Positions 23,464-63,640 of a DNA stretch of 64,000 bases are shown here, in pieces. Source of the DNA: Chloranthus sessilifolius (taxonomy: Eukaryota; Streptophyta; Magnoliopsida; Chloranthales; Chloranthaceae); assembly GCA_021018995.1 (NCBI GenBank), contig CM037584.1:173866317-173930316 (forward strand). Direction: 5' to 3'. The notes beneath the pieces were generated by a model. It made no database searches, was not told the DNA's origin, and was given only the letters and a program-made list of their open reading frames with translations. Within the stretch, counting starts at the first letter, position 1; every line of letters starts with the position of its first letter. The position numbers and the translations under genes are program-made.

Positions 23464-24000
23464 AAAAATAAAAATGCACCCATAAACTCTAATCCATGTG
23501 GTTTTCAGTTCGTGTTTTGATTATCCAGTAGTTACAAACAATGTGAATGATGCTTTATTAGACTCATTGACTTGCATTTTTTTTTTTTTTTTTTTTTAAA
23601 TTTATTTAGATCTGTTGTTGGTTTGTGATGAACTTGTTTTATCTGTCTAGTAACTTTTTATTTATAATTTATTTTTTTTGGCCTCTGGTCTGTATTCTGT
23701 TGCATGATGAACTTGTGTTCTCTATTTAATTATTTGATTTGGTAATATATCTTAGTGCCATTTTTATTGTCTTTTAACTGCTCTAATAAGGTGATCTATT
23801 TATATTCTGTAAATAGTATATATTTCCACAGATTGAATGAGAGCATTCCTTGTTTATAGGCTAGTATTATGAATTTAGTATTGATGGCCGACTCGTCCAT
23901 TACTGAAACCGATTCGGGCTGTCAGCCGAGTCTGGTTTGTCTCTGCCAAGTGGCTATGGTGTTTATTTCCAGAAATATTAAGTGGATGAGTGGTATAGTT
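23464..24000. other. Non-coding, possible intron or leader
   Basis: AT-rich with a T19 tract at 23578-23596. No gene was seen. If the candidate donor at 23462 is used, this would be intronic. Confidence 0.35.
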
Positions 24001-24165
24001 GTGACCAAGGTTCAAAATTTCAGCCGAAATGTTTCAGTTTTGGTCCCCCACCGAAACCAAAATGATAACTAAAATTATTGGAATTTTTTGTATTGTGTTG
24101 AAGTTTTTGGCCAAAATTCTAAATTTCGGTTCAAAATTCCACCAAAACCGAAATGAAATCCTAAA
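24000..24165. repeat. AAACCGAAAT-family repeat
   Basis: CAGCCGAAATGTTTCAGTTT and AAATTTCGGTTCAAAATTCC are part of the same GGTTTCGG-type family seen at 2180-2790. It is short and degenerate. Confidence 0.4.
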
Positions 24166-24390
24166 TTTGCATCATTGGTTGGGACTCTTATAATCTCAGT
24201 TCAGATCAAGTTGACTCACTTGTCTTTTGAACCTTGGTTAAAAGAGTAAATTTGATATGAGATTGACTCCTTTCTAGGGCTGTCAATGGGTTGGGTCGGA
24301 CTTGATAGGTCATCATTTGAGCTGTGCTCAACCCAAAAATTATGATCATATGAGTTTTTATATCATTCAATCACGGCACTTAAGATACTG

Positions 24391-24635
24391 CTTTATTGTG
24401 ATAATGAAGCTGCTGAAACTATTTCTTTAGACTTAGTACTGCACGAGAGGACCAAACATATTGAAGTAAATATTTACCTGTTTGGGAAAAGTATGATGGC
24501 TCACTAGAGCTCATTGATGTGTCATCCTCACACCAGCTTGCCAACATATTAACAAAGCAGTTGGACTCAATCCTCTTCATCATTTAATGATCAAACTGGG
24601 CATGTTAAAGTTTTCTTGCTCCAACTTGAGGGGAG
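24391..24635 (+). pseudogene. Ty1/copia RNase H 3' end, truncated
   Basis: The frame at 24391 reads through LYCDNEAAETIS and LHERTKHIEV, matching the end of the copia RNase H domain (conserved DN and HERTKHIE motifs). It meets a stop at about 24506. The remaining sequence to 24620 still resembles the usual C-terminal tail in shifted frames. A purine run, CTTGAGGGGAG, directly precedes the LTR as a polypurine tract. Everything upstream of RNase H is missing. Confidence 0.85.
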
Positions 24636-24890
24636 TGTTGGTGATTTGTAGTAGCGATGTGTTGTGTGCTAGTGCCTAGTAGTGTGCACTAGTGTACGTG
24701 GTGTATATGGAGTAACTCTGGGCTTGTGTATGTACAAATATATGCCCCTTCTCTAAGTAAGCTTTTGTCATTCTATCTCTCTGCTTTCTAATTCTCCTCT
24801 CTTCTATCTTGAACCCCTAAAACTCTAACCTAATCCTAAACCCATTCTGCAGACCCTAACACCACCGATCTTCTCACCAAATCTTTAACA
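24636..24890 (+). mobile_element. Copia 3' LTR, 255 bases
   Basis: It begins TGTTGGTGATTTG right after the polypurine tract and ends ATCTTTAACA, giving TGTT...AACA termini. Transcription-like features include a CT-rich run at 24770-24800. The matching 5' LTR is not in the window. Confidence 0.75.
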
Positions 24891-25400
24891 CATTATCTTC
24901 TATATCAAGCATCAAGGTCTGGTCAATGCTACGAGTAGCTAACCTGCCGATAAACATTAAATCATTAGTCACATATTTTCATTCCTCATTTATATTTTTT
25001 GATCAATAATGATAAAATTATCTAGAAGAAAGTGATAAAATTTTCCGATCTGCCAATTTTTTTTTGCGTCTAAAGATGCACCTTTGTTTTGATTCAACGT
25101 CGTCAACTCAAAATTTGGTGTAAAGTGATCGATGAAGTGATAAAAACAGTAAGTTACCGACAAGTTCTTCAAATGAATATCTTTACATTGTTACAATAAC
25201 TTGGTCAATGTTGTTAAAGTTAGAAGACAAGGCAAGGTGGCCTCACCTCATCTACACATGATTTTATATGGCCTAGATAATTTTTTAATTTCTATTCTAT
25301 GTGCAAAATACGTTCATACATACACGTACGGTAAGTCAAAGTTGATTGACTTTCTCCCTCCCCACGAACAAGCCTTCCTTGAGCTAATTGAGGCAAGGCT
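24891..25400. other. Non-coding stretch
   Basis: No coding region or repeat boundary was recognised. A C/D-box or tRNA-like fold was looked for and not found. Confidence 0.35.
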
Positions 25401-25560
25401 TGCCTAGGTGCAATGACAAGTGCTGTCCACCCAAACGATAGGTCGCGGGTTCGAGTCTTCGAATCAGCCTCTCCAAAATGGGGGTTCGAGGCTGCCTACT
25501 ACCTACCTTTCCCAGCCCCTGTTTTCAGCGGGAGTCTTGTGCACTGGGTACAATGCCCCT
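25400..25560 (+). mobile_element. Au-type SINE remnant
   Basis: GGTCGCGGGTTCGAGTCTTC is a pol III B-box region. It is followed in the expected order by CAGCCTCT, GGGGTTCGAGGCTGC and GCGGGAGTCTTGTGCACTGG, the diagnostic landmarks of the plant Au SINE. The A-box side (25405-25430) is degenerate, and there is no clean T tail. Probably inactive. Confidence 0.75.
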
Positions 25561-25725
25561 AACCCTTGCCTACGTGACCTAGGTGAACTTGATATATTCT
25601 ATTGGTTCCTACTCCTTTGTAAGCAAAGTGGTTCTTCACTGGATTTGTCTGGATGATGTAATTTCAATTCTAAGTGATTTTTAAAATTTCTGAAACAGTA
25701 TATTTATTAAAATGGCTATTTTCGA

Positions 25726-25866
25726 TCCACTAACATTAAAGAATCACCTTAAGAATGGTATGACTTTTAGCTGCATGTTCACTTACTCTTTACTTTATAA
25801 CAAAAGGGCTAAATGATTTGACTCTGTCGTGCAATGTATGAATCTCAATTCTAGTACATAATTCAG
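25726..25866 (+). repeat. Second repeat family of the snoRNA region
   Basis: Landmarks are TTTTAGCT, a CTTTCTTT-like tract, AAGGGCTAAAT, TGTAATGCTGTAATCTCAA and TAGTACATA. Other copies lie at 28250-28375, 28396-28545 and 29024-29175, and a fragment at 27787-27845. A TTTAGC/GCTAAA stem followed by AAATNA could be an H/ACA first hairpin and hinge. I could not draw a convincing second hairpin, so no RNA gene is called. Confidence 0.5.
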
Positions 25867-25954
25867 ATATGTATTTAACAAGATCTATGTGCTCCAATAA
25901 TGCAAACTATTTGTTATCAACCTAATAACATTAAAAATCATCTTCATTGATACA

Positions 25955-26103
25955 ACTTTTAGCTACCTGTACCAAGAGATGGTATGAATTTTTATTGCCC
26001 TTCTCTTGCATTGCCAGTGAGGTGGTAGCTAAATAAATTAGAAGAAAACTGGTTAGGTTGTTGTTAATTAGTCTACAACCTGCTTACCATTCTTCTAACA
26101 ATA
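25955..26103 (+). ncRNA. H/ACA snoRNA-like unit, copy 1
   Basis: Hairpin 1 has a perfect 10-base-pair basal stem, TTTAGCTACC with GGTAGCTAAA, and an upper stem AGAGA/TCTCT. A single-stranded hinge AAATAAATT holds an ANANNA H box. Hairpin 2 closes with AGAAG/CTTCT and has an apical AGGTTG/CAACCT stem. ACA stands at 26098-26100, three bases before the predicted 3' end. The target RNA is not known to me. Confidence 0.75.
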
Positions 26104-26260
26104 AGAAAATTGGAATTGAAAGTATTAATAGATCGAAGCTTAAACAATAGCTGACCTTCTTGCGAACATCAATGGCGCATATCTATCTACCAGTCCTTAA
26201 TGATGCACGCAACTATTTCCATTAACCTAGTGACATTAAGAAATCATCTTTATTGATACA

Positions 26261-26410
26261 ACTTTTGGCTACCTGTACCAAGAGATGGGTATGAATTTTT
26301 ATTGCCCATCTCTTGCATTGCCAATGAAGCGGTAGCTACATAAATTAGAAGGAAACTGGTTAGGTTGTTGTTTATTAGTCTACAACCTGCTTACCGTTCT
26401 TCTAACAATA
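26261..26410 (+). ncRNA. H/ACA snoRNA-like unit, copy 2
   Basis: The basal stem is TTTGGCTACC with GGTAGCT. The upper stem AAGAGATGGG/CCCATCTCTT is fully Watson-Crick. The hinge contains ATAAATT, and hairpin 2 has AGAAG/TTCT and AGGTTG/CAACCT. ACA is at 26405-26407. This is among the best-folding copies. Confidence 0.78.
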
Positions 26411-26565
26411 AGAAAACTGGAATTAAAAGTATTAATAGATCGAAGCTTAAACAATAGTTAATCTGCTTGCAAACATCAATGGCGTATATCTATCTACTAG
26501 TCCCTAATTATACACAACTATTTCTATCAACCTAGTGACATTAAGAAATCATCTTCAACGATACA

Positions 26566-26715
26566 ACTTTTGGCTACCTGTACCAAGAGATGGGTATGGA
26601 TTTTTGTTGCCCATTTCTTGCATTGCCAGTGTGGCGGTAGCTAAATAACTTACATGCAAACTGGTTAGGTTGTTTTTAATTTGTTGACAACCTGCTTACC
26701 GATCTTCTGACATTT
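26566..26715 (+). ncRNA. H/ACA snoRNA-like unit, copy 3
   Basis: It has the same fold as copy 2, except the upper stem of hairpin 1 uses a G-U pair (CCCATTTCTT). The hinge is altered to AAATAACTTACA, which still contains AAATAA. ACA is at 26710-26712. The basal closing of hairpin 2 is weakened (ATGCAA instead of AGAAGGAA). Confidence 0.7.
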
Positions 26716-26837
26716 AGAGAACTAAAATTTGAAGTATCAATATCTTGAGATTTAACCATTTAACCGATAGCCGACCTGACCTGCCTTCAGAATTCCTATC
26801 AAACTAATGGCATTAATAAATCACCTTCAATAATACA

Positions 26838-26997
26838 GCTTTTGGCTACCTGTACCAAGAGATGGGTATGGGTTTTTTGTTGCACATTTCTTGCATTGCC
26901 AGTAAGGAGGTAGCTAAATAAATAAGAAGGAAACTGGTTAGGTTGTTGTTTATTAGTTGTCAACCTGCTTACCATGCTTACCATTCTTGTAACAATT
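26838..26997 (+). ncRNA. H/ACA snoRNA-like unit, copy 4
   Basis: Hairpin 1 and the hinge are kept. The 3' strand of hairpin 2 carries a short internal duplication (GCTTACCATGCTTACCATTC) that would enlarge the loop. ACA is at 26992-26994. Function may be impaired. Confidence 0.6.
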
Positions 26998-27151
26998 TGA
27001 AAATTGAAAATATAAAGTATTAATAGATTGAAGCTTAAACGATAGCTGACCTGCTTGCAAACCTCAGTGGTTTATATCTACCAGTCACTAATGATACAGA
27101 CAACTCTATTCATCAACCTAATGGCATTAAAAAGTCACCTTCAATGATACA

Positions 27152-27300
27152 GCTTTTGGCTACCCGTGCCAAGAGATGGGTATGGATTTTTGTTGCCCAT
27201 TTCTTGCATTGCCAGTGTGGCAGTAGCTAAATAAATCAGAAGGAAACTGGTTAGGTTGCTGTTAATTTGTGACAACCTGCTTACCGATCTTCTAACAATT
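27152..27300 (+). ncRNA. H/ACA snoRNA-like unit, copy 5
   Basis: Both hairpins, the AAATAAATC hinge and ACA (27295-27297) are present. Copy-specific changes include TACCCG in the basal stem region. Its last 40 bases are repeated exactly at 27301-27340. Confidence 0.72.
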
Positions 27301-27340
27301 GTTAATTTGTGACAACCTGCTTACCGATCTTCTAACAATT
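27301..27340 (+). repeat. Exact 40-base duplication of the copy 5 3' end
   Basis: 27261-27300 and 27301-27340 are identical, so a second ACA tail (27335-27337) follows directly. Identity shows the duplication is recent compared with the array. Confidence 0.95.
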
Positions 27341-27462
27341 AGAGAACTAAAATTCGAAGTATCAATATATCGAGGTTTGACCATTTAACCAGTACTAGTA
27401 GCTGACCTGCTTGCAGAATTTCTATCAACCTAATGACATTAAAATGACCTTCAATGATACAA

Positions 27463-27612
27463 GCTTTTGGCTACCTTTACCAAGAGATAGGTATGATTTT
27501 TTGTTGCACATTTCTTGTACTGCCAGTATGGTGGTAGCTAAATAAATTAGAAGGAAACTGGTTAGGTTGCTGTTTATATGTTGTCATCCTGCTTACCGAT
27601 CTTCTAACAATT
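27463..27612 (+). ncRNA. H/ACA snoRNA-like unit, copy 6
   Basis: The basal stem is TTTGGCTACC with GGTAGCTAAA. The hinge AAATAAATT and closing AGAAG/CTTCT are intact. ACA is at 27607-27609. The apical stem of hairpin 2 is weakened by GTCATCCT in place of ACAACCT. Confidence 0.68.
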
Positions 27613-27892
27613 AGAGTGCTAAAATTGGAAGTATCAATATATCGAGGTTTAACCGTTTATCCAATAGCTGACCTGCTTGCAGACATCAATTACTTCTAAT
27701 TTAAATCCTCTCATCACTTCAAATATCTCTTCAATAGGGTCCATGTCCACAAGTCTCTAAATATTCAAATGACTATTTGCTATCTATCTAATGACAGTAA
27801 AGAATCGCCTTAAGACCGATATGACTTGTAGCTACATATTTATGTGTCGATACAAACAATTACTTGTTGTCCTAAGTATTAATAAATAATAA

Positions 27893-28043
27893 TATTGACG
27901 CTATCTGTACCAAGAGACGAGTATGGATCTTTGTTGCCCATTTCTTGCATTGCCAGTGTGGCAATAGCTAAATAAATTAGAAGGAGACTGGTTAGGTTGT
28001 TGTTAATTTGTTGACATCCTGCTTACCAATTTTCTACTATTAG
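27893..28043 (+). pseudogene. Decayed H/ACA unit, copy 7
   Basis: It aligns with the other copies through CTGTACCAAGAGA, TGCCAGTGTGGC, TAGCTAAATAAATTAGAAGG and TGCTTACC. The terminal ACA is replaced by ACT in CTACTATT, and the upper stem of hairpin 1 is disrupted. Likely non-functional. Confidence 0.7.
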
Positions 28044-28617
28044 AAAACTAAAATCAAAAGTCTTAATAGATAAACGTTTAGCGTTTCATCTCAAACGTTG
28101 AGATTTGGCCAATGCTCTATACGTGACTGATCTGCTTGCAAGCCCCACTAACACAATTTAAAATTTTAATTGAAGACCATTTACAGGAGGAAGTTTTAAA
28201 AACAAATACAATTTCGACATGTCCTCCAAAAACGTATCATTACAATAACTTGATATATATTTACCATTAGTGAGATCGTACTTATCTACTTCTTTTATAA
28301 GCAAAGTGACTAAATTACTTGCCCTTTCTAAAGTTTTGTAATGCTGTAATCTCAATTATAAGACAATTCAAATTCTCTTCAGTCAAGTCCACCTGTCTCA
28401 TGAATCACCTTAAGAGTAATAGGGCTTTTAAGTACATGTTCATCTGCTTCTTTCTTTTCAAGCAAAGGGCTAAATCATTTCCCCCCTCTTATGATCTGTA
28501 CTTTGTAATGCTGTAATCTCAACTATAGTACATATCCTCAAAATTCTCTTCAATAGGATTTACAATTCCCTAATGGTACGAATGGATACATGAATCTGCC
28601 TAATGAGAGGTCATCTT

Positions 28618-28740
28618 TAACAATAATGACATGTACCATGAGCCGGGTATTGCTTATTAAATCCCATTTCTGTATTGCCAGTGCGGCGGAAGCTAAATTG
28701 TTTAGAAGGAAACTGGTTAGGTTGTGACTTGTGAACTTTG
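28618..28740 (+). pseudogene. Decayed H/ACA unit, copy 8, truncated
   Basis: TTGCCAGTGCGGCGGAAGCT and GAAGGAAACTGGTTAGGTTG are retained. The 5' arm is scrambled, and the 3' arm with the ACA tail is missing. Confidence 0.65.
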
Positions 28741-30433
28741 AATGTATCGGTTGTCCTTCAACTGATTCATAATTTTCAGTTTGGTACATTTCAGCTTGTA
28801 GTTGTATGCGTTGCTTTTTTCTTTGTAACTTTTGCCTCAACCAACATCCCGTTGGCCCAAACAAAGCCCGTCTCATTTTGGAATTCTTCATTGTTTCTTT
28901 TGATTATCTTAATGGAATTCTTCAAATAGTGGTAGAAAAAATCTTAATTCTAAGAGAATTCTAATGTCTCTTCAATAAGATTGATGAGCCTCTAATTATA
29001 CAATTTGGTATTGTTCTCAATCACATTAAGGAATCATCTTGAAAGAGAGTAATAGCTCTTTTAGCTTCTTGTACACCTATTTCTATCTTTGTAAGAAAAG
29101 GGTTAAAACATGTGTCTGTTATGTTGTGTATTGTTTAATGATATAATCTCATTTCCAACCCGTAATCCAGATGTCTATTCACTAGGTCCACTAGATTCTT
29201 CCATCACTAATTTGTAGAAATTTCTAAGGGGCTTAACCACACTACAGAATCTCTCAGAATGTTACCCAACTTCCCTTGCCTACCCCAGAACGGTACCAAT
29301 CTCTGCATCCTTCATTTCTCACCCACTATTCATTCAATAACTCAAATCCGAACAAATACTCCTTAAATGCCACTCTAATTACTTTTCATCCCGGAACCAT
29401 ACTTAACCCAACTACCAACCTTGACCCTTCAAACCTAGTTAACTAATTTTTGAACTCCGTGTAATCTGTACTTAAACCAAGGTTTTAATAGCCAGACCGG
29501 CAACCGAGCCAGCGAGAGCAGTCTGGTTGGACTGGGTTAAACTCAGTTGGACTGAATTGTTTCAATGAACGCAGCACATATATTATATCAAAAAATGAAA
29601 AATCAAAACTGTACCAATGAACAATAATGAGAAAAAAACCCTCTAAGTTGCTTGGACATTGAAACAAATGACGGAAAGGAATAGATCATTAGATCTACTT
29701 TAGTAGTATTTTTCTAGCATAGTAAAATTCTAAAATACCCTTGATGGATTTACTGTTTTCATGTCTTGAAGCATTTCAGTTGTAACCATGGCATGTTTGC
29801 ATGAACAGTTAAATGATAATTGAGGGTTCATAAATTATAACTGGGAAAGTGCTTTTCTATGTTTATGTATATTTGTATTTTTTTTTTTTTTGCTTCTTTC
29901 ACAAAATCTGAAATAATATCAGAAACCGTAGGAAATAAATGCACACAAAGATAACAGCAACCTAGAAGCACTACTAAAAAGCAAAACATTTTCTATTGTC
30001 AAGTTCACTTGAACCTCTATATTGCCGTATCTGCTACATAAAAACGTGGAGATACATGTAAGTGAAGCCAAATATAAGAGCAAGATCTTTGCGAAGGTCT
30101 TTCTTTGAGATTTAAGAGGAATGGAACTTCAGATTGAAAAATGAGAGGTGCTTAAATGCAGCTTTCTTTAGGAGATACAAATTTCTCATCAAATGAAAGT
30201 TTTTGTGTTCATATGATAGATGATTAATCTAAAGTGCATATGTTTTTCTTATGTTTCTGTGCAATCAATTAGCATGTTTTCCAGTTTTGTGTGCATGTTA
30301 GATAAGCAGGCTTACAATGTTTGCTACTTTAGGCTTATGAACTGGAAAATGTTTCTGGTTAGCAGCTGCTGAGTTAGGAGAGTTGATTTTTACTGTCTAT
30401 TTAGATCTCAGTAGATCATTTTTCCTTGCGTAG
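28741..30433. other. Non-coding stretch upstream of the RNA-binding-protein gene
   Basis: It contains one more copy of the second repeat family (29024-29175), a GACTGGGTTAAACTCAGTTGG repeat at about 29530 and a T-tract at 29879. No coding region was seen. It may be the end of a long 5'-UTR intron or an independent promoter region. TTTTTCCTTGCGTAG at 30419-30433 is a good acceptor 27 bases before the ATG. Confidence 0.45.
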
Positions 30434-30460
30434 GGCTTAAATATTCAGAAGGTTATCGGG

Positions 30461-31765
30461 ATGGCATTTTGTGGTAGAATTGGGAGCCTTATCAGACAGA
30501 GTTTATTAAACAATGGCGTTTCAAATGGACCGGTTTCTTTGATATCCATGGCGAATCATGTTCGCTGCATGTCAGCATCTACAAAGCTTTTCGTTGGAGG
30601 TATACTTCCTTTTGTCCTGCTACTCGGAGTGTTTTGTTTCTTGATTTCAGAACCGATGTTACCTGATTCGCTGGTTCGCTCAGTTTGAATTCGGGTTCAT
30701 AATCTGCAATTCGCCAATTGCGAGTGAACCTGGGTCGCTAGGTGTAGGATGAGTTCTATTTTTAGATATTATGCAGGCACGTAATTACTAGTTATATTTA
30801 ACGTTTGCACATTCTATCATATATCCACTTGAGCATCGTTGGTTTGAGCATGGATATCTTCTAGGGAGGTTGAAGGATCAAATCTCCTTCCCTTTATTTT
30901 CTTTGAAATTGCTGTTTAAAAAAAGTCCAATTCACTCATATCCAGCGAACCGAACCGAACCGAACCGCGAACCAGTTTACGGGCCGGCACCAGCTATGGC
31001 TGAAAGCGAAACCTCTATTTTGATCCTTGCGGTGCAGAACCATTCCATATGCCTCATTGATATTTATTTAAATTGTTTGTCTTGTAGGTCTATCATTTGG
31101 GACTGATGACCAGTCACTTAGAGATGCATTTGCCAGCTTTGGTGACGTGACTGAAGGTGAGTTGGTCTACTTGGTGTCTTGTGGGGTGGTAATATGTAAG
31201 ATGAAGCCAAAATTACTCTTTGCCCTCATCATTTCTCGGAAATGACCATTATGTTCCTGAACCAAAATTATTTTTTTATCCTTGCTTTCTCCGAAGCTGT
31301 GTTAGCTATATGCGATCGCTTAATCACTTATTCACAGCTGCCACTTTTGGTCATAAGATTGCATATGCTGTGATGGCGTATACCCTATTATAGTGCTAGA
31401 CTTTAAGCGATGGGATAAGCGATAAATATGTGTTGTTGAATATTTAGTATGGGACGACAGACTGATGTCCAATTTATGCCATGGCATACAAAAGTATGCA
31501 ACATCATAAGCGGCAAGCATGGATCAAAATATCATCCGATACCGATACATATCGGTTTTGGACTTGGACGATACGGTAAATAGGGTTTTTCTTGGGCCCC
31601 TTAAAAAACTGTCAAATTATCGTCCGTATCGTCCAATGTATCGTTCGTATCGGTCCTCCATGGACTGATACCGAGTTTGACGCCTTGGTCCTACCAATAG
31701 CAAAAGTTATTTTATCAGTAAAATTTGGTGTTATTACACTAGATTTATAAAAGAGGCCTTGGGAA

Positions 31766-31842
<77 letters not shown>

Positions 31843-34800
31843 GAAGAACTTGTGTTTGGTCTGAACATCGAGTGACCATATTTGGTTCTCCATACATGGT
31901 TAGAATAGATGTCACTTAATCTACTGGATACCAAAAAGGGTACTTCTATTAGCGCCCACACAATGTCTGAAAGTGTCCACATCGGAAACCCCTTCAAACC
32001 CTTGATTGCTTCGGATCAGATGATGGAGATCGTGTTTCACCCCAATCTTGTAGACAATGGATCTTGAGATCATGTTGCACTTATCAAATGACCAGTTTTT
32101 TATTCCACATCTCACAGTTCCCCCAGAAATGGCCCTAAAATCAATCGTGTTTGAGCGTGATGGGCATTTTTTGGGATCTGTGGCATGTGGAATAAAAAAC
32201 TGACCGTCTGATAGGTGCGACATGATCTCAAGATCCATTGTGTGGAAAGATCGGGGTGAAACACGATCTCCATCATCTGATCCGAAGAAATCAATGGTTT
32301 CGAAGGGGTTGGACACGGGGGCGCTTTCAGAGATTGCATGGGCGCTAATAGAGGTACCCTACCGAAAATGTCCCCTGTTTTATTTGAATTACCAAAAAAT
32401 GCGTTTTATCTTTTGTGAGTACAAAAATTTCTCTGATTATTGATCGCTTAGTTGTATCCACAAATGAGGACAGAATAGTAGTTGCTATGGTTGGTCCAAA
32501 CATGGGCTCCGACCTCTATATTCTTCTTTTTTAGACACGCGATGAATATCTAGTGATCCGTTTAGTGATTTTATTTTTTTGCTTGAACTATTTGTTGGTC
32601 TGATTGTTAATCCTTTTACTAATTCACTTGCACTCCCAGAAATCTTTGATCATAATTGAATGAAACAATTGCCTTATCGTATCTATTTGGAGCCAGCTCC
32701 TATAATTCAATAATTGCATTAAAAAATTATCCTACCTTAAATACTTTAGTATAACATTTTAAAAATTGCTTATTTTAATGAAAATTAAATCTTCTCTAGA
32801 CCATTTTTTTTAATATATTGTATTTTTGGATAATGGGATATCCAGCCTCTTAGAGCACTGGACTAAGTCGCCGGGTGCATGTGACACCTGCACATCTCAC
32901 GCACCAGTGATTGAGGGTAAATCAATACGAGTGGCTAACAAGGGGTGGGATTCGAACTCAGAACCTCCCCCATTGTTTAATTTTGTTTTAGTTTTATATA
33001 GTACTTGACAATTATAAAGAGATATCGGAGTAATAATTGTTTTCTTATTATAAAATTTTTGGCTTTGCATAGAATGAATATTAAAATGTTGTTTTCGACC
33101 CTATGATATAACCTCCTGTTATGGAGGGACTCGTGATGTGCAAAAAACTGCAAAAATCTGATTGATATTTTGGGGAATTCTTCTCTTTAAGTCAGATTTC
33201 TTCCTCCTTCCCTCTATTTGTTTTTTTTAGTTTTTTATTTTCCAATTATTTATTTATTAAATTTATGTTCGAGTTTGATGGATCTGTGGAAGATGATGAT
33301 GAATCTATAGGTCCGTGTTTCGAACTCAGAACCTCCCCCGTTGGATGTTTTAGTTTGATATGGTACCTGACAATTATAAAGAGATATTAGAGTAGTAATT
33401 ATTTTCTTATAATAAAATTTTTGGTTTTGCATAGGATGAATATTAAAATGCTGTTTTCGACCTTATGATATAACTTCCTGTTATGGACTCTGGTGTGCAA
33501 AAAAGTGCAAAATAATGATTGATATATTCGGGATTTCTTGTATTTAAGTCAGATTTCTTCCTCCCCTCTAGTTGTTTTTTTTAGTTTTTTATTTTCCAAT
33601 TATTTATTTATTAAATTTATGTTTGAGTTTGAGGGATCTGTGGAAGATGATGATGAATCTATTGGTCCGTGTTTCTGAATGAGTCATGATTGATACACTA
33701 TTACTTATCTCTGATTCCACCGCTCCCCATATCTATACCATAAGTATTTATATTATTTATATTTGTTTTTCATGAACTAAATTATAATTACACAATACAA
33801 TTTTAAACTAAGATTCAAAATATTATCCTTGTAAAAATCACTGGTGCTGATTTTGTCCCAGTATATCTCTTTCGAGTCTGTTAGTCCGCGTGCTTGAGTT
33901 TTTTGTAATGGTTCAAATTCCAGACTGGAACTCAGACCACGGATACAAACCTGGTTGATCCCCTATCAGATTATCATAAAGATAATTACAAATAAAAAAC
34001 GAAGATCGAAAATACTAAAACAAGGAAAGTGTGCTGTAATACCTATACGGAAGACCAATTAAATCAATTAAAAAATTCCTATGGATTCATATCTTGAGCA
34101 TTCCGTCTAGTTGCTTATTATTCATTGAAGATTTCACCGTTCACAAAAAATTATTTCATCCTATCATGACAGCACCATAAGTTCATAACCATATCATTGA
34201 CCACGATATTAACCATAATCCACCAATCATCGGTCGATTATGTTCATGAGTTAAATCATACAGCAGTAGATATGAACCATCAACCAATAACCACTTGACT
34301 GTATGGACACCTCAATTATATCTTCAAGAACGGTACAATTTTGATTTGAAAAGTTTTAAATAGGCTCATAGTTTCCTCATCGAGTAATCACCTTGCCCAC
34401 CAAAATTGCTTACACATGCATCTTGGGTAGTGCCATAATATTGACTAGACATGGTATCTGGATGCTGCGTTCCTCATCGGTTTCACTCTGTCTCTCTCTC
34501 TCTTCTTTTTTATGCATTCCTAGCCCCTCAAAAAGAAGAAGGGCATGAGCTTGTAGCACATTGAAGGGTTGACAATATTGCAATCTCAAAGTTGCAAGTA
34601 CGAGCTTGGCCTACCCATCAAAAGAAAAAGAACAGTTGGAAGCGTCCTGTTGAGCTTGCCGAGAGAAAGAGAGGTTTTGAGCAGCTTGTTTCTAACTCAG
34701 ACTTCAGGTTGGATTTAGTGTGCTGCTATACAACAGATTGGTTGGTGTTATTAAGTTTAAAGTGGGAGGAATTTTTTGTTTATTTAAAAAGTGTGATAGT

Positions 34801-35798
34801 AAGCCTACCCTCAAACTGAGAGGGAGGGGGGGCAGTTGGAGGCATCTTGGTGTTAGTATGTTTAAATTGAGGGAGAATTTTTTTTGTTTTATTTTATTTT
34901 ATGTTATTATTATTATTACTTTTCAAAGGTGTGATAGTAACCATGGATCAAAATCTCGGAAAATTGATACGTATCTCCAGCCCCAAAACTGATATGTACC
35001 GGACGATACGTATCGTCCAGCCCCAAAAATGATATGTACCGGACTGTACGTATCAGTTCCGGATGATACTTAATGGTATTTTTCCAAAAAAAAAAAACAA
35101 ACAAAATGATAATTTGAAATTATTGGATGATACAGACGATAATTTGACTGCTTTTTAAGGGGTTCGAGAAAAACCCTATTTATCGTATCGTCCAAGTCCA
35201 AAACTGATACGTATCGGTATCGGACGATATTTTGATCCATGATAGTAACACTAATCTAAAACTAAGCCAGAAGAATTACAATGCATTACAACATTTTACA
35301 GTTTTGAGGCTCCTTTTAAGTCCATGTTTTCTTCTCTCTCTCTTCCTTGTTCTTTGGATAGTACATACGAAAGTGATCATACCTTGTAGTTTTGAATAAA
35401 GATTTCAATATGCATGCGGTAGTTACCTTTTTTTATGATGCAGCAAGGGTTATCATGGACAGAGAGACTGGGAGATCAAGGGGATTTGGATTTGTGAATT
35501 TTGCTTCTGGCGAATGCGCCAGCGCAGCTTTAACTGGAATGGATGGCCAGGTTTGCAAGCTTCACCTTGCTATAATATTATTGCTATAGCTAGCGAAAGA
35601 AGATATTTTTATGCTACATAAATAAGGTAGTAAAAAATTGTCTGATGTCTACAGGATCTTCAAGGACGAAATGTTCGTGTAAACTATGCTACGGAAAGAC
35701 CCAGCGGTGGTGGAGGTTACGGTGGTGGATATGAAGGTAGAGGTGGTGGAGGTTATGGTGGTGGTTTTGGCGGGGACTCGGGAAGGGGAGGATTTTGA
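30461..35798 (+). CDS. GR-RBP: Mitochondrial-type glycine-rich RNA-binding protein, four exons
   Basis: Coding exons are 30461-30599, 31088-31156, 35444-35550 and 35655-35798, with introns of phase 1, 1 and 0 and GT-AG borders throughout. Their sum is 459 bases, or 152 residues. Residues 1-40 are basic and Ser-rich without acidic residues, as in a mitochondrial presequence. One RRM spans about 41-117, with RNP2 LFVGGL (43-48) and RNP1 RGFGFVNF (82-89) and their aromatic RNA-contacting residues intact. Residues 122-152 are a Gly/Tyr-rich tail. Length and exon layout suit plant GR-RBP2-like proteins, which bind organellar transcripts as chaperones or editing helpers. The exact orthologue is not decided. 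Intron 2 (4.3 kb) is packed with transposon remnants yet keeps good splice sites. Upstream context suggests possible co-transcription with the H/ACA array. Confidence 0.95.
31517..31692. repeat. GATACGTATCGG-family element in intron 2
   Basis: It starts CATGGATCAAAATATCATCC and contains CCGATACATATCGGTTTTGG, GTAAATAGGGTTTTTC and a stretch of GTATCGTCC words. The left end matches the complement of the right end of 34942-35242. Confidence 0.6.
31772..31838. repeat. (TA)n microsatellite, about 33 units
   Basis: Uninterrupted TA dinucleotides in intron 2 of the RNA-binding-protein gene. Confidence 0.97.
31938..32361. mobile_element. Fold-back MITE of the GATGGAGAT family, best-preserved copy
   Basis: The left arm runs GGGTACTTCTATTAGCGCCC...GGATCAGATGATGGAGATCG...GATCTTGAGATCATG. 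The right arm is its near-perfect reverse complement, ending GGGCGCTAATAGAGGTACCC. The arms are about 190 bases with a small spacer. A transcript across it would form a long hairpin. It sits in intron 2 of the RNA-binding-protein gene. Confidence 0.85.
32825..32975. repeat. Dispersed repeat with tRNA-like B-box complement
   Basis: It shares ordered words with 5340-5470 (ATCCAGCC, CACTGGACTAAGTC, TGCACATCTCACGCACCA). GGATTCGAACTCAGAACC is the complement of a pol III B box, which suggests a SINE-like origin on the minus strand. Confidence 0.45.
32953..33675. repeat. Tandem duplication, about 368-base period, in intron 2
   Basis: CGAACTCAGAACCTCCCCC starts at 32953 and 33321. Both units then read through CTGACAATTATAAAGAGATA, AATATTAAAATG and AGATGATGATGAATCTAT to GGTCCGTGTTTC. 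Unit 2 has short deletions. Confidence 0.85.
34942..35242. mobile_element. Fold-back GATACGTATC element in intron 2
   Basis: It begins CCATGGATCAAAATCTCGG and ends GGACGATATTTTGATCCATG, which are inverted. Internal words are GGACGATACGTATCGTCC and AAAACTGATACGTATCGG. An AAAACAAACAAAATG stretch lies near the middle. Confidence 0.65.
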
Positions 35799-50252: not shown

Positions 50253-51900
50253 ATGCACACGAGGTCCTTTAAAGGGAAATCTTTAGAACCTTTGAACTCT
50301 GAGATCGAGCGAACTTGTCATTCAAATCGAAAGGAGATCAGATCAATACAAGAAGTCGGAGTTGAAACATTAATTCAATTCGAGATGGCTGCAAATGGTC
50401 GTGAAGAATACCAACATGAGAATGAGGAAGAACCAACTCAGAGAGAGTTGTTTGCTCCAATAATCATAAACACCCCTTCTTGCATCACATACCCCGCCAC
50501 ACCTGGCGACAGATTTGAGATCCGTGCAAATGTGATTCAAATCCTTCCAATTTTTCATAATATGGATAGAGAAGACTCATACCAACACATCAAATACTTC
50601 ATTGAAGTCTGTTCTTCAGTGTATCAGAACTTCAGTGAAGAATCTGTGAGATTGCGTTTGTTTTCTTTTTCTATAAAGGATAAGGCCAAAGCATGATTAA
50701 ATTCATTACCAGCTGGATCTATAACCACCTGGGATCAGATGGTTAAGAAATTTTTAGTAAATTTTTTTTCCCATAGCCAAGACTAATGCCCTAAGACGCG
50801 AAATCACTGATTTTACGTAAGAAGATGACGAGAGATTTTATGAAGCTTGGGATAGTTTCATAGATCTCTTACTGAAGTGTCCACATCATGAATTTTCAAA
50901 ATGGAGATTAGTCCAATATTTTTACAATATATTGGATCAGGCTAATCGACATCTGGTCGAATCGATGAACGTCGGAGGATTTCTTGGACTTAAGGAAAAT
51001 AAATCCTATAATTTCTTGGAAAAGTTGGTTAAAGATTCACAGCAATAGGACTTCACGAAGACTCATGATCAACCAATCAAAAATCGATACCAAACAGAAA
51101 GCTCAACGAAGAAAGGAGGATTATATGTGGTAAAAGAAACCCATGATCTCATAGCAAAGATAGATTTCCTCACTCAATAAGTTGAGGAATTGAAGCTAAA
51201 GAAAAATGTGAGTGTTGTGATTATACAATCAAACCCATGTTCATATTGTGCAAGTTCAATGCACACAACTGACAGTTTCCCTTTAATGCAGAATTATTCA
51301 GAAGACACTTGCGAACAATTGAACGCATTGAACAACTACGGTTGAAATTGGATAAATGTCTTTAATGAAAACAACCCGAATAGTTGAAAATATCATCAAA
51401 ATTTCTCATATAAGCAAGGAAATCAGAAACCTCAAACTAGAGGATAAGGGATGAATTTTTATTCAAATTAAAATTTCAACAAGGGACCACAACAATAGTT
51501 TAGTCAAGGGCAATTTCAATAGCAGAACTATAGAGGTGGAAACCAATTCCACCAAAATCAAAGTCAAAATGGGCAACCCAGGCAATCCAACCAGAATTTT
51601 CAATTCCCACAACCAATAATGGGATATTAGAACCAACCCACACAACAACTCATGCGCCAACCTGGTTTTGCATAAAATTTCCCACCGTCTGGATTCAACA
51701 ATCAACAAGAAAACGCTGCGCAACTTCATCCTCAGAACCAATATCCTTAGAATGAGGATATGTAAAAGTTCATCCAATCAAATACTTCTTCGATATCAAA
51801 GATAGAAACTCAAATTGGTCAATTGGCAACACTCTTATTTGAAAGAGAAAATGGATCATTTCCTAGTCAGCTAATTCCAAATTCGAGAGGACAAATAGTT
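50253..51900 (+). pseudogene. gag of the Athila-type element, broken
   Basis: An ATG frame of 147 codons (50253-50696) contains the conserved gag core region. It then meets TGA, and recognisable gag sequence goes on past several further stops and frame changes to about 51060. A CX2C-like cluster near 51237-51290 is the remains of a zinc-knuckle-like region. A Gln/Asn/Pro-rich linker follows to about 51900. Confidence 0.8.
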
Positions 51901-63469: not shown

Positions 63470-63640
63470 ACACCGATTTCAAACAAACAATAAAAAGAAC
63501 CGAACCAATTCTAAGTCGATTCGGTTTCGATTTTGGGTGACAGATATCGAAAACCGAAAAATGAATATAATTTTTTTTCAAAGAAAACAAAATCAAACCG
63601 ATTTCTTTCGGTTTTGAATTTGGAGTCTGAAACCAAAAAA
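63470..63640. repeat. AACCGA / GGTTTCGG-family repeat
   Basis: AAAGAACCGAACCAATTC, CGGTTTCGATTTTGG and CCGATTTCTTTCGGTTTTG are inverted and direct relatives of the family at 2180-2790. Overlapping short frames on both strands are by-products. Confidence 0.5.

Follow-up and report, generated by a model that had tools for sequence, protein, structure and literature searches.

A gene of the plant snoR109 family appears to have been multiplied locally in tandem, giving an array of H/ACA snoRNA units on the + strand of the window, the whole 64-kb stretch of Chloranthus sessilifolius DNA analyzed here. It is nearly certain that the units are H/ACA sequences of the snoR109 family. We also consider it quite probable that they represent a tandem expansion of a working gene, whose units are processed from a transcript, bound by proteins, and used as pseudouridine guides through their 3' hairpins. 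This fuller statement is held below very high confidence, since it includes expression and guiding, both of which are denied if the units are pseudogenes. The locus is a cluster of non-coding genes, which programs that predict protein genes would overlook. It reveals no new kind of RNA; it is a real new member of a catalogued family.

Units of the array and their family

Eight related units lie in tandem on the + strand. Seven of them (c1-c7) are full-length (149-160 nt) and occupy 25955-28042, and a decayed eighth (c8) is located at 28622-28767. The start-to-start distances from c1 to c8 are 307, 305, 273, 313, 311, 430, and 725 nt. Six of the seven full-length units reach at least the curated cut-off of 34 bits for the Rfam family RF01206 (snoR109, a box H/ACA snoRNA), with scores of 49.0, 48.7, 43.5, 41.7, 35.8, and 35.5, and c4 stays just under it at 31.9. 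The matches extend across all 92 positions of the model, covering the hinge, the 3' hairpin, the pocket strands, and the ACA end. The original prediction recognized the H/ACA character of the units but regarded the family as one that could not be named; by these matches, it can be named as snoR109.

Units c1, c2, and c5 are apparently intact. Unit c1 (25955-26103, + strand; 48.7 bits at 26020-26103) has an H box and ACA, with 14 nt between TTACC in the pocket and ACA; its box H reads AAATAA (26031-26036, + strand). The boxes are also present in c2 (26261-26410, + strand; 49.0 bits at 26327-26410) and c5 (27152-27300, + strand; 43.5 bits at 27218-27300). The final 40 bp of c5 are exactly duplicated at 27301-27340 on the + strand (tandem repeat 27260-27340, period 40, 100% matches), which leaves two possible ACA ends. 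Unit c3 (26566-26715, + strand; 35.5 bits at 26632-26715) carries its boxes, and its 3' hairpin, in which the left strand is CTTACATGC, is without a basal stem in the fold. Alignment of c4 (26838-26997, + strand; its match lies at 26905-26997) reveals a 9-nt duplication within the 3' pocket strand. In c6 (27463-27612, + strand; 41.7 bits at 27529-27612), the boxes are intact and the fold is weaker. Unit c7 (27893-28042, + strand; 35.8 bits at 27959-28042) has lost its ACA, which reads ACT, and its outer 5' stem is weakened. The likeness of c7 to c1-c6 begins at 27900, where the unit start is aligned, and stops between 28036 and 28080. The remnant c8 (28622-28767, + strand) has no Rfam match at E values up to 10 and is detected by R1, a covariance model made from the other seven units, with 27.8 bits and an E value of 1e-4. 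This layout fits the predicted six units and two decaying ones, the latter being c7 and c8.

The 5' end of the Rfam model should be noted. The first 21 positions of RF01206 are unpaired, and in the array they correspond to the 3' strand of the basal stem in the 5' hairpin and the hinge. Ahead of the hinge, a 5' hairpin of some 80 nt is seen in the units; it is absent from RF01206 (the hinge and the 3' hairpin, 92 nt). The array and the model have the hinge, the 3' hairpin, the pocket strands, and the ACA end in common, whereas the model begins inside the 5' hairpin, within its 3' strand, and the array provides the complete two-hairpin RNA of about 150 nt in seven tandem copies. We infer from this locus that the full RNA of the family is the two-hairpin form, suggesting that the public model of snoR109 lacks the 5' portion of the RNA.

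No description of such a snoR109 array was found in the open-licence literature on snoR109, RF01206, and clustered or tandem snoRNAs. In the available parts of the respective texts, a potato study counts snoR109 among its non-coding RNA families, and an alga study applies the name to its MRP RNA. Local multiplication of snoRNAs is itself a known process, reviewed for C/D families in the accessible text of PMC11028025. As described there, the mammalian SNORD115/116 arrays resemble the present array in that one family is amplified locally with gains, losses, and homogenization. However, they consist of C/D snoRNAs in up to hundreds of copies at imprinted loci, whereas the present array consists of seven H/ACA copies and a relic.

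Boxes, folds, and conservation

The ANANNA hinge, as claimed originally, is found at the equivalent place in all seven full-length units, and ACA is located three bases ahead of the inferred 3' end in all except c7. The spacing from TTACC to ACA is 14 nt in six of the seven. In the exception, c4, the first TTACC is 23 nt from ACA and a duplicated second TTACC is placed at 14 nt in the alignment. The pocket of an H/ACA RNA is expected 14-16 nt ahead of ACA. The RNAalifold consensus of the seven units consists of a hairpin, a hinge, a second hairpin, and a tail, and the perfect 10-bp basal stem claimed for c1 is confirmed. When the units are folded singly, both hairpins are complete in c1, c2, c5, and c6 and partial in c3, while part of c4 and of c7 adopts another fold.

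Four of the seven units fold clearly better than their dinucleotide shuffles, with z values of -4.34 (c1), -5.60 (c2), -4.7 (c3), and -3.33 (c5). Units c4 (trimmed to 150 of its 160 nt for this comparison), c6, and c7 fold no better than the shuffles (z of -1.1, -0.88, and -0.9, respectively), and c8 and one spacer give z values of +1.3 and +0.8, respectively. The + strand is more stable than the minus strand in all five units folded both ways (-46.4 and -43.6 kcal/mol in c1, -49.9 and -44 in c2, -47.3 and -34.1 in c3, -48.1 and -36.1 in c5, and -34.5 and -25.8 in c6, + strand first). This preference is consistent with + strand RNA whose stems contain G-U pairs. Together with the RF01206 scores, the boxes, and the pocket-to-ACA spacing, it supports the prediction that H/ACA snoRNA genes are arrayed here in tandem.

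Stem-preserving variation had also been claimed for the units. Both examples given for it are right, but the changes are one-sided (G-U versus A-U or G-C). Across the seven units, 1 of 44 stem pairs is changed on both sides, and the covariation score is reached by 205 of 500 shuffles, hence not above chance. The variation is thus not covariation in the strict sense, and covariation was dropped as a proof of RNA. A lack of significant covariation had been named in advance as a sign against the array, and this sign did appear, in a comparison whose power is low because the seven units are close paralogues.

CTGGTTAGGTTG and CCTGCTTACC of the 3' hairpin are invariant in all seven units, as are its pocket strands CTGG and TTACC. 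The 5' hairpin is without an ordinary two-sided pocket, and its strand just ahead of the basal stem varies (TGAGGT, TGAAGC, TGTGGC in three copies, TAAGGA, and TATGGT). These observations suggest that the 3' hairpin is likely to be the guide hairpin and that the 5' hairpin probably plays a structural role.

In each of the 15 pairs among c1-c6, identity is higher in the RNA part than in the spacer, with gaps either counted or excluded, over the columns where c2 has a base. Some spacers nearly match the RNA in identity (0.88 for u1-u2 and 0.86 for u3-u5), indicating that the conservation comes partly from recent duplication. Other spacers fall to 0.57-0.60 against 0.84-0.89 for the RNA (u1, u2, or u4 against u6). 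However, the sequence behind c6 that serves as the u6 spacer may lie partly beyond the repeated unit. Units c7 and c8 have little in common with the other units outside the RNA itself.

The damage in c3, c4, c7, and c8, which stand beside four copies with all boxes, must be weighed here, since it would be expected if the units were tandem pseudogenes, that is, snoR109 relics multiplied by unequal crossing-over while the functional gene lies elsewhere. The lack of a promoter motif near the array, described below, points in the same direction. However, c1, c2, c5, and c6 retain all boxes and the 14-nt spacing, and both the invariance within the 3' hairpin and the excess of RNA over spacer identity in every pair argue against relics, so that we regard this explanation as unlikely. 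The likeliest reading of the array is a cluster, either polycistronic or intronic, whose guides are redundant and evolve by birth and death. In such a cluster, the units would be cut out of a longer transcript, either a polycistronic one or that of the RRM-protein gene downstream, from an intron of which they would be released, and the excised units would be bound by H/ACA proteins. The 3' hairpin, with its pocket strands CTGG and TTACC, would then direct pseudouridine formation at a uridine. As natural variants, the seven units also make it possible to ask at which pocket positions an orphan guide is conserved.

Transcription context and candidate target

According to the accessible text of PMC4660826, most plant snoRNA clusters are transcribed from promoters with a Telo-box and Site II, and some are intronic. 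The array resembles the polycistronic clusters outlined there in having several snoRNA genes on one strand with short spacers, but differs from them in that the units found are all members of a single family and a Telo-box/Site II pair was not found nearby. The Telo-box, Site II, USE, and TATA were searched as exact words, of which those for the Telo-box and Site II agree with the same text. The Telo-box is absent from 24000-30500, and neither it nor Site II is found as an exact word on either strand of 24955-25955, the 1 kb upstream of the array. In 24000-30500, Site II occurs only at 24719 (+ strand), more than 1.2 kb upstream, and at 28859 (minus strand), behind the array, and the four words together give no convincing unit promoter in this region. 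With the Telo-box absent and Site II misplaced, no promoter of the type usual for plant snoRNA genes was found. A bacterial promoter scan was set aside, as the host is a plant.

Downstream of the array on the same strand, an acceptor-like sequence ends at 30433, and a putative first coding exon begins with the ATG at 30461. Neither this exon nor the next one has a Pfam match; RRM_1, the sole Pfam match among the putative exons in 30461-35586, lies in a later frame (35377-35586, + strand). The gene, which we take from its likeness to encode a glycine-rich mitochondrial RNA-binding protein, has no identified upstream exon. The array may lie within a 5' leader intron of this RRM-protein gene, or may be an independent unit.

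In the available text of a 2016 survey (PMC5122169), snoR109 counts among the orphan snoRNAs, whose target RNA was not found. A first target scan compared six registers of the c2 pocket with eight rRNA pieces. The main scan compared 16 registers for each of the seven copies and the Rfam consensus with an SSU rRNA, a nearly complete LSU rRNA split into two pieces, and a 5.8S rRNA. These are eukaryotic sequences from prokaryote assemblies and not plant ones. Ten records of the prokaryote collection (L001-L010) contain eukaryotic rDNA, probably as contamination; nine of them match the Rfam eukaryotic SSU model and L009 matches the microsporidian one, and L004 also has three group I introns.

The site of interest within the guide reading is the uridine after GCGGUAA in the 530 loop of 18S rRNA, at which the 3' hairpin might direct pseudouridylation. 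The right guide TTACCG pairs with CGGUAA and the left guide CUGG pairs with CCAG, 14 nt from ACA. This uridine scores best for c2 (10.3), for c3, c5, and c6 (10), and for the Rfam consensus (10), the right arm giving 6-6.3 points and the left arm 4. However, when c2 guides are shuffled, a score of 10.3 is attained in 65% of 300 trials over 16 registers, whose median of 10.6 exceeds the best score observed. In a single register, this happens in 7% of 600 trials. For c1, c4, and c7, a different 18S site, GGUAA-U-U-CUAG (index 157), outscores the 530-loop uridine, being tied in c7 with an LSU site, and the 530-loop site had been put forward ahead of the scan. The search for pocket matches to rRNA, proposed with the original prediction, thus yields a site that ranks first for four of the seven copies and the consensus and that is not significant against shuffled guides. 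Since shuffled guides score equally well too often, the site is only a lead, and we consider this finer assignment doubtful. That the array both reveals the complete snoR109 RNA and gives the orphan its target in the 530 loop, with some copies leaning to a second 18S site sharing GGUAAUUC, seems less probable still. If the assignment is true, the target uridine sits beside the decoding center.

The available text of PMC8351944 reports one pseudouridine site in helix 18 of Arabidopsis 18S rRNA and does not state its position. In tobacco 18S rRNA, G579 and G580 are located in the 530 loop, as given in the accessible part of PMC10281867, and this placement would number the candidate uridine U584. 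The available portions of papers on the wheat and tomato ribosomes (PMC10743738, PMC9483110) contain no list of pseudouridine positions, and we found no paper in the open-licence literature, including that on Arabidopsis, that settles pseudouridylation at the 530-loop uridine.

Flanking repeats and the rest of the window

A degenerate repeat, similar in its first part to the beginning of the snoRNA unit, flanks the units at 25741-25819, 28290-28381, 28402-28521, and 29046-29151. These four stretches and 25582-25690 were considered as a second snoRNA-like family, having words such as GGGCTAAATNATTT and TAGTACATA in common. None of the five folds better than its shuffles (z of -0.5 to +0.7), and their Rfam matches are weak and far under the cut-off; the family was rejected as an RNA gene and left as a degenerate repeat.

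Conserved flanks of tandem units of about 305 bp, together with the likeness of the flank repeat to the unit start, would suit a repeat of ordinary kind, either a dispersed transposable element or a satellite, that folds by chance, but this is highly improbable given seven snoRNA covariance-model matches with the boxes in place and no convincing further copy in the 64-kb window outside the array, either by BLAST at an E value of 1e-6 or by a covariance search, which gives noise-level matches only (the best at 63549-63640, minus strand, E value of 0.47). A BLAST comparison of one unit with plasmids gives no match and is uninformative.

The surroundings of the array are plant-like: elsewhere in the window, one frame has a protein kinase domain and another has GUB_WAK_bind of wall-associated receptor kinases. 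Pieces of retroelements (RT_RNaseH domains, and integrase matches just under the cut-off) and a DUF659 piece are also found. The plant C/D snoRNA snoR71 (RF00097, 55.3 bits) is located at 50788-50894 on the minus strand, near retroelement reading frames on the + strand.
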